DNA of 27,046 nucleotides, from IMG/VR virus record IMGVR_UViG_3300020159_004793, positions 1-27,046 of that record; one strand, 5' to 3'. Shown in pieces: positions 6,425-15,661 of the stretch. This DNA comes from a virus. The first letter of the stretch is position 1. The number at the start of each line of letters is the position of its first letter. Under the pieces are notes generated by a model that ran no database searches, was not told the DNA's origin, and was given only the letters and a program-made list of their open reading frames with translations. The translations under genes were made by a program, and so were the position numbers.

Positions 6425-7729
6425 TTATTCGAATTCATCAAGATTGTAAACATGTGATTGCTTTGGAATATAATCTATACATCCATTTGGTGTCAAAAAC
6501 CAGTTCCATACATCTGGTTTTAAAGGATGAATATGATCTCCAAAGCCATCAGTTAAAACCCACACTGCATCAGGATAATTGGAATTATTTTGTTTTATTT
6601 GATTTAATATAAAATTTTCTAAAATACAAAACGATGTTCCACCACCACCATATATTTTTCTAGATTCTAGAGTTGTTTCTTGCACCCTAGTGTCAAAACA
6701 AAAAAGCTTTACATCAAATTTTTTCTTATCTAAAGACAAGGCTGCATTAAAAAATCTTTCTTTCAAATGGTAGCAGCTACCACTGGTGTCAAGAAAAAAC
6801 ATCACAGAAAGCCTTTTTTTCTCTGTCTTGATATCCAGTACATCTTGTTCACTGGGCAAAAATAAATCCTTGCCTAAAAAGACATGTCTTCTATGTGTTC
6901 TGGCCCATTGATCAGAGAGTATTTCTGTTTCGTAACGAAGTTTTGAAGTCCATTTTTTAACAATTGATTCCCATTTTTTCTTTTTTGCAATAAATGCTTC
7001 TGGAATATAATCTATTAGGCCACCGGCAGAGGTGCCAGCTTTTTTGTGTTTTGACATCATGTTGCCAATTTCTTTTTTTTCCTCTCCACTTAAAGATTTG
7101 GATATTTCTTTTACAATTTTGTTTGATGAAGAATTCTTGTCAAAATCGTGGTGATCTACCGTTTTAGGATAGGACTGTCCTGATACATCTTCTTTTTTAC
7201 CCGAACCATCATTGCTGCCGTCTTTTTTACTAGATTTTTTAGTGGAATCCTTTAAAAGCAATCGATAATAAAATTCAGATGTTTCATCATCAGATATTGG
7301 CAAACCATTGTAAGTTTTATCTTTAAAAACAGTATCAATCCAGCAATATTCTTCCCAGCCTTCAATTTTCTCACGAGAAAAACCAAACCTAGAAAGCAAA
7401 GCGTGGTTTATAGCAACATCCATAGCAACATTTGACAGAAGTGGATTTTCTGATTCTGCAAATCTATAGCCATGGTTAAAAAGAATGTGCAGAGACTCAT
7501 GGCATATTACGAACAGCTTTTTATAGCAGGAACACGAATCCCAAAAATCTGGGTTAAAAAGAAAACTAACATGTTTGCCATCTTTATCAAAAGTTACACA
7601 AGCGGTAGGAATTTCTGTAGTAAAAACAGGCTTGCCAATTTCCCACATTTTGTAAAAAATTGTATGATAGTCTTGCAGATCTAGGCATATTTTTTTCCAA
7701 TCTTTAGGAATCATTTTAGTTGTGATCAT
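6425..7729 (-). CDS. VWA-like protein with DUF2201-type metallopeptidase region
   Basis: The N-terminal half carries HESLHILFNH, an HExxH motif at residues 77-81, as in the DUF2201 putative metallopeptidase region. The C-terminal half is a von Willebrand factor A-like domain with the MIDAS motif D314-T-S-G-S318 (FFLDTSGS) and a later GGGGTSF loop. A linker at about 170-230 is Ser/Lys-rich. I chose ATG 7729 over an upstream in-frame GTG at 7735, because GGAG lies 5 bases before the ATG and the ATGA overlap with the ATPase stop is the classic coupled form. MoxR ATPases pair with VWA proteins to remodel or mature protein or metal complexes, so the two probably act together. The substrate is unknown. 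Confidence 0.85.
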   Translation of the reverse strand: MITTKMIPKDWKKICLDLQDYHTIFYKMWEIGKPVFTTEIPTACVTFDKDGKHVSFLFNPDFWDSCSCYKKLFVICHESLHILFNHGYRFAESENPLLSNVAMDVAINHALLSRFGFSREKIEGWEEYCWIDTVFKDKTYNGLPISDDETSEFYYRLLLKDSTKKSSKKDGSNDGSGKKEDVSGQSYPKTVDHHDFDKNSSSNKIVKEISKSLSGEEKKEIGNMMSKHKKAGTSAGGLIDYIPEAFIAKKKKWESIVKKWTSKLRYETEILSDQWARTHRRHVFLGKDLFLPSEQDVLDIKTEKKRLSVMFFLDTSGSCYHLKERFFNAALSLDKKKFDVKLFCFDTRVQETTLESRKIYGGGGTSFCILENFILNQIKQNNSNYPDAVWVLTDGFGDHIHPLKPDVWNWFLTPNGCIDYIPKQSHVYNLDEFE

Positions 7730-9201
7730 ATGCACTCCGATTCAGAAAAATCATTTGCCAATCCTACACCAGAAAGAAGCAGAATTGATTTGTATTTGGG
7801 GTCATTTATTATTTCGCTAAAATCAAACCCTTGTGTGGTTGCCATTTTGTGTAATTTACTAAGCAAGAAATTAGCCACATTAGGCAAGCCGTGTAGCTCT
7901 TGCGATAATAGTGTATTTGTAGAAGAATTTTCACATATTGCATTTAAAAAAATCAAAACAGACAAACACTCATCTTTAGATATTTGTTCTGGTATTTCAA
8001 AACATAGTTTTTTATAACTATCAAATTTTTTAGATATTAATTTCATGTTTGTCATATGCAAACTTGACAAAAGGCTGCAAAGACCATCTTTTGGTCTTAA
8101 AGCGGTTGGTTTAAATGGTTCTAAAGGAGGAATACTATCGGCAATATCTGTGTTTTTATTTTTCAGGCTATTAAATTTTTCTCTTTGACTACGGGCAAAA
8201 ACATTTTGTATTTTTTTCTTAAGAAGTTGATTTTTGCTTAAAAGTCCTGATTGAAGCAAACTTTCAAAAACAGGGTATGCTTGCCAATTTTTGCTGATGT
8301 GTTTGAAGACATCATCGTTTGATATTAGTAAAGACATAAGTTTTTCTTTATGAATTAATGGGAGAAAAAAATTCATATAGTCATCATTTTTAATAATGTG
8401 TGGAATAGCAGATGTAGAATTATTATCGTTCGAAAGATAAAGTTTTGAATCTGATTCGTTTTTTGATTCAAACAAAGATTTTATTTTTGTTTCAACAGAG
8501 CCGTTTTTTAAAGACTGTAGTAGCTTTGGAATATTCGATGACACTGGAAGAATGTCACGAACATCTCCTCCTGCAATAAATTCGTCCAGAGCGTATTCGA
8601 GTCGTCTAGGGCTGATTTTGTTTTTTTCGGCATCAGGAAGGGCATTCCACCATTCTATACTGGTGGCAGCATGTTCCTGTCCAAATCTTGATACAAAGAA
8701 ATCAAAATCACATTCGTAGGGAATTTCTTTTATGATATGAAATCGATCTTCTTGAGCAGGATCTACTTTTTCAACATCATAAACATCATCAGAATCAGGG
8801 TTTACAGCAGTCCAAACACACTTCAGGTCTGGAAACCTAAATCCATTGATGCTTTTGAACTGCAGTAGCTCCATGACTGCATTTCTTACTTTTTTAGGAG
8901 AACGATTGAACTCATCAAAGAAAATTGCAACAATTTTACCATGATATAGATTTTTTGGCCTAACTATATCAAGATATAAGCGTCCTTCTTCATCTCGGAC
9001 TTCTTTGGGACAGCCAATAAGATCCACCCAAGGGTCCAAGGTTGAAGCGCTAAAATATAGGTAAGTTTCGTTGTGAATAAGGCCATGTCGTTCAAAACAT
9101 GCTTTGATCATGGCGGTCTTGCCTACACCATGACGGCCAACAAGCATGACATTTTTATTAGTATTGAACCACCAATCCAAGGTATCAGGCTTAATAGACA
9201 T
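7726..9201 (-). CDS. MoxR-type AAA+ ATPase
   Basis: The N-terminal ATPase domain shows Walker A (GRHGVGKT, G22-T29), Walker B (AIFFDEF, D96-E97), sensor-1 N134 in TAVNPDS, an arginine finger R153 in QEDRF, and SPRRLEYA near sensor 2. About 250 C-terminal residues are helical and unlike anything I can name; they may bind the VWA partner. The predicted role is ATP-driven remodelling of a protein complex with the VWA protein encoded 4 bases overlapping downstream. The start has a perfect GGAGG 5 bases before the ATG. The same frame is open for 33 further codons upstream, with a protein-like sequence but no standard start codon. Confidence 0.9.
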   Translation of the reverse strand: MSIKPDTLDWWFNTNKNVMLVGRHGVGKTAMIKACFERHGLIHNETYLYFSASTLDPWVDLIGCPKEVRDEEGRLYLDIVRPKNLYHGKIVAIFFDEFNRSPKKVRNAVMELLQFKSINGFRFPDLKCVWTAVNPDSDDVYDVEKVDPAQEDRFHIIKEIPYECDFDFFVSRFGQEHAATSIEWWNALPDAEKNKISPRRLEYALDEFIAGGDVRDILPVSSNIPKLLQSLKNGSVETKIKSLFESKNESDSKLYLSNDNNSTSAIPHIIKNDDYMNFFLPLIHKEKLMSLLISNDDVFKHISKNWQAYPVFESLLQSGLLSKNQLLKKKIQNVFARSQREKFNSLKNKNTDIADSIPPLEPFKPTALRPKDGLCSLLSSLHMTNMKLISKKFDSYKKLCFEIPEQISKDECLSVLIFLNAICENSSTNTLLSQELHGLPNVANFLLSKLHKMATTQGFDFSEIINDPKYKSILLLSGVGLANDFSESECI

Positions 9202-10054: not shown

Positions 10055-10270
10055 TTACCCGTTTTTCATTTCCTTTTCCATATCTTCTTTTTCTTTTTGC
10101 TTTTGCTCTATGAACCTATCAATCATGTATTTTCTTTCCATGATCGGTATTTTCATCCACTTAAATCTGTCTATATTTAAATGGTAATTGAAAAAGAACA
10201 TTTCTTCTAATAATCCACGGTACAAAATCAGGCTTGGTTCTTCTCCTTCTTCTTGCCCCGTGGGAAGAAA
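10055..10270 (-). CDS. -1 frameshift extension of the gp26-like gene
   Basis: This frame, one base back from the gp26-like gene, is open from the slippery site through that gene's stop to TAA at 10055. A shift at 10270 adds 71 residues, giving a fusion of about 397. The core LLEEMFFFNYHL...PIMERKYMIDRF ends in a Lys/Glu-rich helix. It resembles, from memory, small proteins following gp26-like genes in other T4-like phages. ATG 10201 could alternatively start a separate 48-residue protein, but it has no convincing SD. By analogy with lambda G/GT, the longer product may be a tail assembly chaperone. Coding nature is likely; the expression route is inferred. Confidence 0.7.
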   Translation of the reverse strand, partial: FLPTGQEEGEEPSLILYRGLLEEMFFFNYHLNIDRFKWMKIPIMERKYMIDRFIEQKQKEKEDMEKEMKNG

Positions 10271-11247
10271 AAATTTGCTTCTAGTGGCAATTCAACCTCA
10301 AAATCGTCGCTAGTTATTGGTGATGCAACTGTTACTTTAGTATCAATACCAAAGGGAGGTTCGGTGACTAGATTTCTTAAATAAGAAACATCTTGAATTG
10401 GCAGTTTTTTAATTAGAACCTGTAGTTCATTTTTATCTGTGATGTTTTGAATGGAATTTACAAGCTGTGCTGTGCGATAAATCAAAGTGTCATCTGTAGA
10501 ATTATCTCCACTTTGTTTTAGCCGCTTTTCTCTGTACTCTTGCACGGCAATTTCATCACGACCACGAGAAAATCTGTATTCAAAATGAAAGCCGGTTTTA
10601 GGTAGTACATCCGTAAGTTCTGGGCCAAAATTATTAGAGCATCTTTCAACATTCAAAGTATCTAGATCAAGAACTGTTGTAAATTTTCTATCTGTTTCTG
10701 GATCTTTTATTTCTACTTCATAGTCGGTACCATAAGAAATACCACGCAAATATATTAAAAGATAAGTTCTATCAACTGACAAAAGGTTTTCAGGCTTGAA
10801 ATTTTCCTGAATGCACTTGCTAAAAATCATATTTATTGCCTGCCCACGCTTTACAAATCTAGGTGTCGCTAGAATTTGTTCTTCCTCACCAGTCATGGGC
10901 CTAATGTGTAAACGACCATCAGAAGGCCCATCTGTACCATCATAAAAGCGACCAAGAGAAGGAAGTACAATTTCTTCATAGGTTGCAGATTGTAATTTCA
11001 GTGTTTCTAGCAAAGCTTGCAAATCGTTGCTCATATTCGGAACGAATTGTTGCAAACTGGGAGCGTTTGTAGTTCTAACTGGAGTTGCTTCTCCACTTGC
11101 TATTTGCTGCTGTCTTTTTTGTAATCTTTCCATAAGTTCGGGAGGTACTGCTCCACTAATATGAACGCCGTCCTCGTGATTGTTCTGAAAATTATCGCCG
11201 TTGGGTTGTTGATTTGGTTTGCTCATGCGAAAAACATCATCTGACAT
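10228..11247 (-). CDS. T4 gp26-like baseplate hub / tail assembly protein
   Basis: A 339-residue protein. Residues about 1-85 are polar, Gln/Asn-rich and probably disordered. The body has marks of the T4 gp26/baseplate family: LPSLGRFYDG, IRPMTGEEEQILATPRFVKRG, and LLIYLRGISYGTDYEVEI. I set the start at ATG 11247, which has AGGAGA 6 bases upstream. The frame reaches TTG 11340, but that would overlap the divergent gene and adds unrelated sequence. The likely role is assembly of the baseplate hub or of the tape-measure complex. Near its 3' end it holds a -1 slippery site leading into an overlapping extension ORF. The family assignment is from memory of motifs and is fairly strong. Confidence 0.7.
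   Translation of the reverse strand: MSDDVFRMSKPNQQPNGDNFQNNHEDGVHISGAVPPELMERLQKRQQQIASGEATPVRTTNAPSLQQFVPNMSNDLQALLETLKLQSATYEEIVLPSLGRFYDGTDGPSDGRLHIRPMTGEEEQILATPRFVKRGQAINMIFSKCIQENFKPENLLSVDRTYLLIYLRGISYGTDYEVEIKDPETDRKFTTVLDLDTLNVERCSNNFGPELTDVLPKTGFHFEYRFSRGRDEIAVQEYREKRLKQSGDNSTDDTLIYRTAQLVNSIQNITDKNELQVLIKKLPIQDVSYLRNLVTEPPFGIDTKVTVASPITSDDFEVELPLEANFFFPRGKKKEKNQA
10267..10276 (-). promoter_or_regulatory. Candidate -1 ribosomal frameshift site
   Basis: In the zero frame the codons read GCA AAT TTT TTC. This makes two overlapping canonical X_XXY_YYZ heptamers, A_AAT_TTT (10276-10270) and T_TTT_TTC (10273-10267). Six bases after the first, CCACGG (10263-10258) can pair with CCGTGG (10220-10215) across a 37-base loop, so the spacing is right for a stimulatory structure. 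A purine-rich AAGGAG lies in the loop. The site is 37 bases before the zero-frame stop, and the -1 frame is open from here for 72 codons. Confidence 0.65.
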
Positions 11248-11287
11248 TTTTTCTCCTAAATTGTATTGACTTAAATTATAATAGTTT
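11248..11287. promoter_or_regulatory. Divergent promoter region with palindromic -10
   Basis: These 40 bases separate two divergent genes and hold the palindrome ATTATAAT (11275-11282), which gives a TATAAT -10 box on both strands. On the minus strand it is followed by a 5' leader with AGGAGA before ATG 11247. On the plus strand TATAAT (11277-11282) is only 5 bases before ATG 11288, so a transcript would be nearly leaderless. No good -35 or perfect TATAAATA is present. Confidence 0.4.
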
Positions 11288-14164: not shown

Positions 14165-14401
14165 ATGAAGAAGAATTTCCTTGAAGTTATAGAAAAACAA
14201 GAAATATTACAAATACTAGAAGATCGTGGATTTGGAGACAAAATCGAAGCTCTTCTTTTAAATGAAAATAAAGTTTATACTAAAAAAGGCCGACTAAACA
14301 AAAGTGGAGCATGCAGGATTCTTGGCATGAAACCAAAAGAACTTGAGGAATTTTTAGCAAAATGCAGAGATGCAATTAAAGCTGACCAATTTCTCGACTA
14401 A
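14165..14401 (+). CDS. Small helical, HTH-like protein
   Basis: A 78-residue protein. Residues about 37-70 (GRLNKSGACRILGMKPKELE) look like a helix-turn-helix, with a first helix around SGACRILG and a second from KPKELEEFL. From memory, similar GRLNKSGACR stretches occur in T4-like phage hypothetical proteins. It lies 104 bases after the sigma-factor gene, so a transcription-related role is possible, but it does not look like gp33. The start has no SD; TATAAATA (14158-14165) directly overlaps the ATG. The preceding 104 bases hold an extended -10-like TGATATAAT (14048-14056). The stop overlaps the tail-tube stop by 4 bases. Confidence 0.7.
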   Translation: MKKNFLEVIEKQEILQILEDRGFGDKIEALLLNENKVYTKKGRLNKSGACRILGMKPKELEEFLAKCRDAIKADQFLD

Positions 14402-14907
14402 CTTGTTTTATATGCTCTGTCATATCGCAAAGTAATATCTACAGTGCAAACTCCTTGATCTTCATTGCTAAGGGAATTGAAGTTTGCACTCGTACACCAA
14501 GCGTTTTCATAAAGCCAAGATTCGATTGTATTCCCACATCCATCAAGCATGCTTAAAAGACAGGTTTTTTTATATCTGTTATAATCAAGGCCTCCAGAAA
14601 CATTTGATGTTTGATAGCCGCCCTGATAAGGGTTATAAAGTTGCAAAACCCAATTCCACACAGGACTACTGGCTTTAACATCATATAAGGTTAGTTGAAA
14701 AGTTTGCCAATTAGGACGGCTTGGAAAAAATATTGTTTCTGTTAAATGAGGCACAGACATTTCTTCAAATGACAAACTTGGTCTAGCAGCAGAAGCTGGC
14801 GGCAAAGCACCGATCCCGTCATCAACGACTCCGGGTATGTAAAATAAATATCTGTGTTTTCTTTTGAATACAGCATTGAATGCCCACTGTATGCCCATGT
14901 TGGCCAT
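14398..14907 (-). CDS. Tail tube protein paralog A (gp19-like)
   Basis: A 169-residue protein, close in length to T4 gp19 (163). It has the family layout: FKRKHRYLFYIPG at the N terminus, then SRPNWQTFQLTLYDV, WNWVLQLYNPYQGG, SMLDGCGN (about 116-123) and a final DITLRYDRA strand. It shares this layout and the MLDGCGN signature with the gene at 14999-15661, so the two are paralogs. The start has AAAGGAA, and a perfect late promoter lies 17 bases upstream. A terminator separates it from the upstream paralog, so it is expressed separately. It could be the main tube or a specialised tube such as an initiator or terminal ring. Confidence 0.82.
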   Translation of the reverse strand: MANMGIQWAFNAVFKRKHRYLFYIPGVVDDGIGALPPASAARPSLSFEEMSVPHLTETIFFPSRPNWQTFQLTLYDVKASSPVWNWVLQLYNPYQGGYQTSNVSGGLDYNRYKKTCLLSMLDGCGNTIESWLYENAWCTSANFNSLSNEDQGVCTVDITLRYDRAYKTS

Positions 14908-14924
14908 AAGATATTCCTTTATAT

Positions 14925-14932
14925 TATTTATA
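14925..14932 (-). promoter_or_regulatory. T4-type late promoter core for tail tube A
   Basis: A perfect TATAAATA on the minus strand, 17 bases before ATG 14907, followed by an A/T-rich leader with an AAAGGAA ribosome site. It lies just downstream of the terminator at 14944-14974. Its sequence, position and orientation match T4 late promoters recognised by gp55. Confidence 0.75.
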
Positions 14933-14943
14933 CTTCAATATGG

Positions 14944-14974
14944 AAAAAAAAGACGCTGGATACCCAGCGTCTTT
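14944..14974 (-). terminator. Strong intrinsic terminator after tail tube B
   Basis: On the minus strand AAAGACGCTGG, loop GTAT, CCAGCGTCTTT form a perfect 11-bp stem, and the downstream arm runs into a T8 tract. It lies 24 bases after the stop of the 14999-15661 gene. It is the only clear intrinsic terminator I see in the window. Confidence 0.92.
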
Positions 14975-14998
14975 AAGGTTGTTGCTTTTAAAAATAAA

Positions 14999-15661
14999 TC
15001 AAGTTGCGCCACCAATGCTGCCTGCGGGAGACCATGGGAAGCTATAAGTAAAGCCTGAACCACCTGATGTACTGCGACCAGCAGCACAAGTGAAAGTAGG
15101 CTGGTTGCCAGCTAGGTTTACACGCTTCGCAAACTGATACTTCAATCCAAGTGATACATCAGATGCTTCCATAGTTTCGTAAGAAAGTTCTCCGAAATTT
15201 ACAGATTTTGGCCAACACATGAACAGAGTGAATTGCTCCAGACCATTGCCGCAACCATCTAGCATGCCAAGCTTTCCAGTAGCAGTATAACCGCCGGGGC
15301 CTGTAGCATTAGATGACATGCGAGGATTGACTGCTGTGCCTGTTGGTGAAAGGAAGTCATATACACCTCCAATCCAATTGTATAATTGCAACATGCTATC
15401 GTCGTTATCAACAATATCATGATAAACAAGTGTTATGTCCTGAAAAGTAGCCCTGTTGGGCATAGTCATTTCACCATGAAGGAAAGACACTTTGGTTTCA
15501 CCGAAATCAACATTCGGTCTGCCTGTGCTTTTCACATAATGCTCAGGAATAAACTGGCCGGGATTACCATTGATATTCTCGACCCTAAAAACCCACCTAA
15601 ACTTCCTCTTGAATGTAACATTTCTTTCGGCAATCTTGCCAATACCCATATTATAGGCCAT
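14999..15661 (-). CDS. Tail tube protein paralog B (gp19-like)
   Basis: A 220-residue protein of the gp19 tube family: FKRKFRWVFRVE at the N terminus, RATFQDITLVYHDI, LQLYNWIGGVYDF, KLGMLDGCGN, and a final VSLGLKYQFAKR strand. It has the same order of motifs as paralog A. It carries extra sequence: an insertion before MLDGCGN and a C-terminal Gly/Ser-rich tail of about 40 residues. It follows the sheath gene by 17 bases and has TAGGAGA upstream, so sheath and this tube are probably one transcript, as in T4 18-19. That makes it the better candidate for the main tube. A terminator follows. Confidence 0.84.
   Translation of the reverse strand: MAYNMGIGKIAERNVTFKRKFRWVFRVENINGNPGQFIPEHYVKSTGRPNVDFGETKVSFLHGEMTMPNRATFQDITLVYHDIVDNDDSMLQLYNWIGGVYDFLSPTGTAVNPRMSSNATGPGGYTATGKLGMLDGCGNGLEQFTLFMCWPKSVNFGELSYETMEASDVSLGLKYQFAKRVNLAGNQPTFTCAAGRSTSGGSGFTYSFPWSPAGSIGGAT

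Follow-up and report, generated by a model that had tools for sequence, protein, structure and literature searches.

The window, by which we mean the whole stretch of 27,046 nucleotides of viral DNA analyzed here (IMG/VR record IMGVR_UViG_3300020159_004793, positions 1 to 27,046), carries on its minus strand a gene for a protein of 339 aa (10228..11247), with a Shine-Dalgarno sequence, AGGAG (ttaggagaaaaaATG), on the same strand (11253..11257) before the ATG at 11247. In a profile search, the gene product matched PF12322 (T4_baseplate) with 46.3 bits and an E value of 5.5e-12 and thereby passed the gathering score (cut-off 24.5); the gene is a member of the T4 gp26/gp51 family. Its PHROG match is phrog_150, baseplate hub. 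Upstream of the gene, the sheath and tube genes are encoded on its own strand; several opposite-strand genes and a single further same-strand gene intervene, and no tape measure gene was identified directly downstream of it in the window. In the relatives SP-15, LIS04, immuto, and HTVC008M, the order is tube gene, PF12322 gene, (small ORF), and tape measure or large tail gene. Two further features of this region of the window are two gp19-like tail tube genes side by side, downstream from the sheath gene (14398-15661), and, near the tail genes, an AAA-type ATPase gene that adjoins a DUF2201 metallopeptidase/VWA-like gene (6425-9201).

Close to its end, the gene reads GCA AAT TTT TTC TTC CCA (minus strand). 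This stretch includes an upstream heptamer, A_AAT_TTT (10270..10276), and the main slippery heptamer, T_TTT_TTC (10267..10273), which overlap and are both in frame, and 36 bases lie between T_TTT_TTC and the TGA stop codon (10230-10228). In the -1 frame, about 71 codons (10055..10270, minus strand) follow without interruption up to a stop at 10057-10055, and the fused product would have 397 aa whichever heptamer slips. The first-pass annotation had the overlapping heptamers, the open -1 frame, and the products of 339 and 397 aa right. The zero-frame product would be the short form of a chaperone (TAC-N, the counterpart of lambda gpG), and the extension, judged from its open frame, its homologues, and its dN/dS, would be the C-terminal part of the long form (TAC-NC, like lambda gpGT). 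Taken by itself, the site in the window is only suggestive of a frameshift: canonical in-frame heptamers are common in the window (51 in 6,256 codons), and the heptamer alone is therefore weak evidence. A 71-codon open -1 frame arises in 17 of 5,000 dinucleotide shuffles.

Searches with the extension against Pfam, PHROGs, and phages (BLAST) gave nothing useful except LR756511, and therefore, the frames themselves were used to make a profile. It was seeded on the -1 frames of the clade, represented by 80 IMG/VR relatives with 65 distinct proteins at the site and 61 distinct extensions, and was then run against all three forward frames; it matched the -1 frame in 80/80 relatives and frame 0 in none. 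Past the zero-frame stop, the median dN/dS was 0.10 in the -1 frame compared to 1.3 and 1.8 in the other frames, which points to strong purifying selection, and the most variable positions of the extension are third codon positions. The codons of the site itself do not vary among the distinct relatives (TTT in 65/65, TTC in 65/65), compared to 61% TTT among the Phe codons elsewhere and a mixture of TTT and TTC at three other conserved Phe positions that served as a control. T_TTT_TTC is kept in 63 of the 65, and 2 have C_TTT_TTC, which is not a canonical heptamer; A_AAT_TTT or its GGG form, G_GGT_TTT, is present in 54. Hence, of the two heptamers originally proposed as the signal, T_TTT_TTC holds and the upstream one is dispensable. 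In bacterial genomes, a pattern scan found one relative, and the family was found in 3 of 295 genomes. Conservation of the heptamer and of the -1 frame in homologues and the dN/dS of the extension had been named beforehand as checks on the frameshift proposal, and all came out in its favor. On these comparative grounds, the conservation across relatives is overwhelming and appears to settle the frameshift question where the heptamer of the window alone could not.

A possible downstream RNA stem, in which CCACGG (10263-10258) pairs with CCGTGG (10220-10215), spans 10215..10263 on the minus strand. This stem, which the first-pass annotation had noted as a possible one, is strong in the window, with a folding energy of -18.1 kcal/mol and a z score of -3.5 against dinucleotide shuffles (0/200 were as good), and it is also found at locus L021 and partly at L022, but it is not conserved across the clade: over 57 distinct clade sequences, no consensus RNA structure was found downstream of the site, and a conserved stem was dropped as part of the signal. 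An internal Shine-Dalgarno stimulator was also rejected. In the window clade, only 6 of 56 sequences have a motif resembling a Shine-Dalgarno sequence upstream of the site, and its presence in 72/72 sequences of the cyanophage type is confounded by a conserved Glu-Gly-Leu.

A corresponding arrangement is found in other phages. In the cyanophages S-RIM44, S-RIM8, P-SSM7, and syn9, the Pelagibacter phage HTVC008M, the Sinorhizobium phage phiN3, and the Aeromonas phage phiAS5, gp26 has T_TTT_TTC or T_TTT_TTT at its end, just a few bases ahead of the stop. The small ORF that follows gp26 in the cyanophages, HTVC008M, phiN3, and phiAS5 is read in the -1 frame relative to gp26 and is named "gp51" or "baseplate hub assembly catalyst" (in phiAS5, hypothetical protein). 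The "gp51" of the cyanophages, HTVC008M, and phiN3 is probably a misannotation, being the C-terminal portion of a gp26 made by frameshifting. Among the cyanophage-type IMG/VR loci, the same extension as in the window clade is at -1 in 79/80, T_TTT_TTC is invariant, and dN/dS is 0.11. The separate "gp51" of 31 to 60 aa in these public records is annotated at L216:1851-2030, L217:1893-2030, L218:1932-2027, L219:1884-2021, L220:1902-2045, and L221:1842-2003.

The direction of the shift is not the same throughout the family. In Mel-JY01-like phages, the +1 frame holds the homologous extension in 78 of 79 loci (site TTT TTT TGG CCT), and the same is true of SP-15-like phages (25 loci, site TTT TTT CGN); these two clades comprise loci L096-L175 and L176-L205 (e.g., L006:3756 and L005:3747). 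The +1 extensions are under purifying selection as well, with dN/dS values of 0.13 (Mel-JY01-like) and 0.26 (SP-15-like, from few pairs). Reaching these extensions takes a shift of either +1 or -2, two possibilities that are indistinguishable by sequence. A lone Mel-JY01-like locus, L139, has its extension at -1 (site AAT TTC TTC TGG), which is either a recent switch of direction or a contig error. The -1 clades are the window clade, the cyanophage type, and XacN1/Atu_ph07, and on a tree of 70 proteins, made by a quick method and with several open forks, there are at least three changes in direction.

T4 gp26 spans the whole PF12322 profile, and gp51 does the same and continues for another 48 residues. 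The profile of the cyanophage-type -1 extension found the C terminus of gp51 in six Straboviridae phages (best full-length E value, 3e-6) and found no gp26. Five of the six gp51 C termini outranked all 8,195 decoys (E values of 1e-6 to 0.05); the sixth, from Acinetobacter, had an E value of 0.16. The non-cyanophage extension profile alone gave no convincing match to T4 gp51, and the link to gp51 therefore passes through the cyanophage-type sequences. In the tree of 70 proteins, gp26 clusters with gp51 (support, 94), and next to them is phiAS5 (support, 89), which retains one frameshifting gene. Since gp51 carries the extension, gp26 is without it, and both group together, the short and long forms in T4 appear to be two gene copies. 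In RB43 (L214:1501-2794), gp51 (the long copy) and gp26 (the short copy) are in tandem on one strand, compared to opposite strands in T4; the tandem arrangement may more nearly reflect the duplication as it first occurred. A review describes the G/GT-type frameshift as widely conserved "except T4" (PMC5009743), and a gene duplication would explain why T4 looks like an exception. The window record has one PF12322 match only, with the extension in another frame; the record may be a fragment, so that a second PF12322 copy may lie elsewhere. In all, we consider it quite probable that one chaperone family uses a -1 slip in some clades and a +1 (or -2) slip in others, with at least three changes of direction, and that the T4-type phages escaped frameshifting by gene duplication (gp26 and gp51).

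For the gene in the window, the conserved site, the -1 extension, the selection acting on it, and the protein family together argue for programmed -1 frameshifting that yields a short/long, G/GT-like chaperone pair from one gene; we give the frameshift a probability of about 0.93. In our model, the source is one late tail gene. The majority of ribosomes would stop at the TGA and release the 339-aa short form, and a minority would slip back by one base with the P-site and A-site tRNA-Phe on UUU UUC (T_TTT_TTC) and continue for about 70 codons to give the long form of 397 aa, whose C-terminal extension is charged and helical. Together, the two proteins would serve as the tail assembly chaperone of a contractile-tailed phage, probably in the manner of lambda gpG/gpGT: numerous short copies would coat the tape measure protein, and few long copies would recruit the tail tube protein. 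The sequences establish the site, an open -1 frame, selection in both reading frames, homologues across phages, and the absence of a separate start; from these, we infer that ribosomes shift, how often they do so, and that the products are chaperones, the last of which is likely in view of the family, the gene position in relatives, the short/long pairing, and the fold.

Two other explanations of the second frame have to be weighed. The extension could be an independent small gene, with its own start or coupled to the upstream stop, as implied by the cyanophage and Sinorhizobium phage records that annotate a separate ORF of 31 to 60 aa ("gp51," baseplate hub assembly catalyst), and an ATG, GTG, or TTG does precede the helix in 41 of 61 extensions, including an ATG in that of the window. 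However, a start codon led by a Shine-Dalgarno sequence is present in only 1/61, and 20/61 are without any start codon; the arrangement that, according to the first-pass annotation, would refute its proposal, an independent gene with its own Shine-Dalgarno sequence and no slippery site, is not what the relatives show. The -1 frame is open back to the heptamer, the codons of the site are frozen in the zero frame, and in gp51 of the Straboviridae, the extension and the PF12322 domain are fused in one frame, which shows that the fused form is functional there. We regard an independent gene as very improbable. The chance is just as slight that the RNA polymerase, and not the ribosome, changes the frame by slipping on the T run, even though every site is a T run of about 6 to 7 and the family shows both -1 and +1 outcomes. 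Polymerase slippage usually needs runs longer than 6 T, so that the 6-T runs are rather short for it, and what the -1 clades conserve is a tRNA-pairing heptamer with a fixed final C (TTC in 65/65), not the length of the run.

It is also conceivable, albeit unlikely, that the frameshift is real yet its products are structural parts of the baseplate hub and not chaperones. The PHROG and Pfam names are those of baseplate and hub proteins, and a T4 review gives contradictory evidence, some of which puts gp26 in the hub; the same review, however, also counts gp26 and gp51 among the chaperones of hub assembly and states that the virion contains no gp51 (PMC3004832). A short/long pair from one frameshifted gene beside the tape measure gene is, moreover, a mark of tail assembly chaperones, and the predicted fold argues in the same direction. 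In the AlphaFold model of the window protein (mean pLDDT, 73), the HK97 tail assembly chaperone gp13 (2ob9) ranks first among the PDB matches, with a Z score of 5.7 and an rmsd of 3.5 Å over 79 of 104 residues (model residues 208-299, about a quarter of the window protein; 13% identity). The second match is 3fgx (Z score, 4.7), which we take to be a protein grouped with the tail assembly chaperones, and the next falls to 3.0. Since a Z score below 8 in this fold-match tool indicates a possibly common arrangement, the match to 2ob9 falls in the uncertain range and supports a chaperone fold without proving it. Matches of the fold among viral models (BFVD) were the SP-15 baseplate hub subunit and gp26 of Aeromonas phage 25.

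Programmed frameshifting into a chaperone pair, our preferred reading, has several known counterparts. Lambda gpG/gpGT and P2 E/E' likewise consist of a short and a -1 extended form, made by a low-level -1 slip from a tail gene near the tape measure gene; the slippery sequence of the window differs in being U-rich (UUUUUUC) at a Phe-Phe motif, and the likeness drawn here is one of gene plan. In Pseudomonas phage Adele and the Vandenendeviridae, TAC-N and TAC-NC arise from the T-rich motif GTTTTT, and as is probably so in relatives of the window, the conserved -1 frame was wrongly annotated as a separate gene (PMC12846349); these phages belong to a different family and are likened here by the frameshift arrangement. 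HK97 gp13 is comparable as the top-ranked solved structure only, with the low identity and uncertain Z score given above. T4-like gp26/gp51 shares the protein family (PF12322) and the extension with the window gene, as far as can be judged, but T4 itself has two gene copies where the window has one gene and a slippery site. Tail assembly chaperone genes of T4-like phages have been identified by Vladimirov, Gautam & Davidson (2022, Virology 566:9-15), a paper to which PMC12846349 refers on poly-T signals for a -1 shift in "TAC-N genes of T4-like phages." Going by that citation, the remark of the first-pass annotation that it was aware of no established case among gp26 proteins no longer holds, and the core finding is therefore known in kind; the T4 duplication step, and perhaps the rest, may already be contained in the same paper. 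For a change of shift direction in this family, we found no description in a limited literature search, and this point may be new.

With these results, a large set of tail genes from uncultivated phages and cyanophages would follow the rule that a long tail requires both a short and a long chaperone. Many public "gp51" genes are probably no genes but the far end of gp26. For T4, gene duplication offers a concrete route by which frameshifting may have been lost, with phiAS5 as the frameshifting relative. Finally, clades in which the direction changes and the product is kept would form a natural series, useful to test how the ribosome chooses between -1 and +1 on near-identical U-rich sites.
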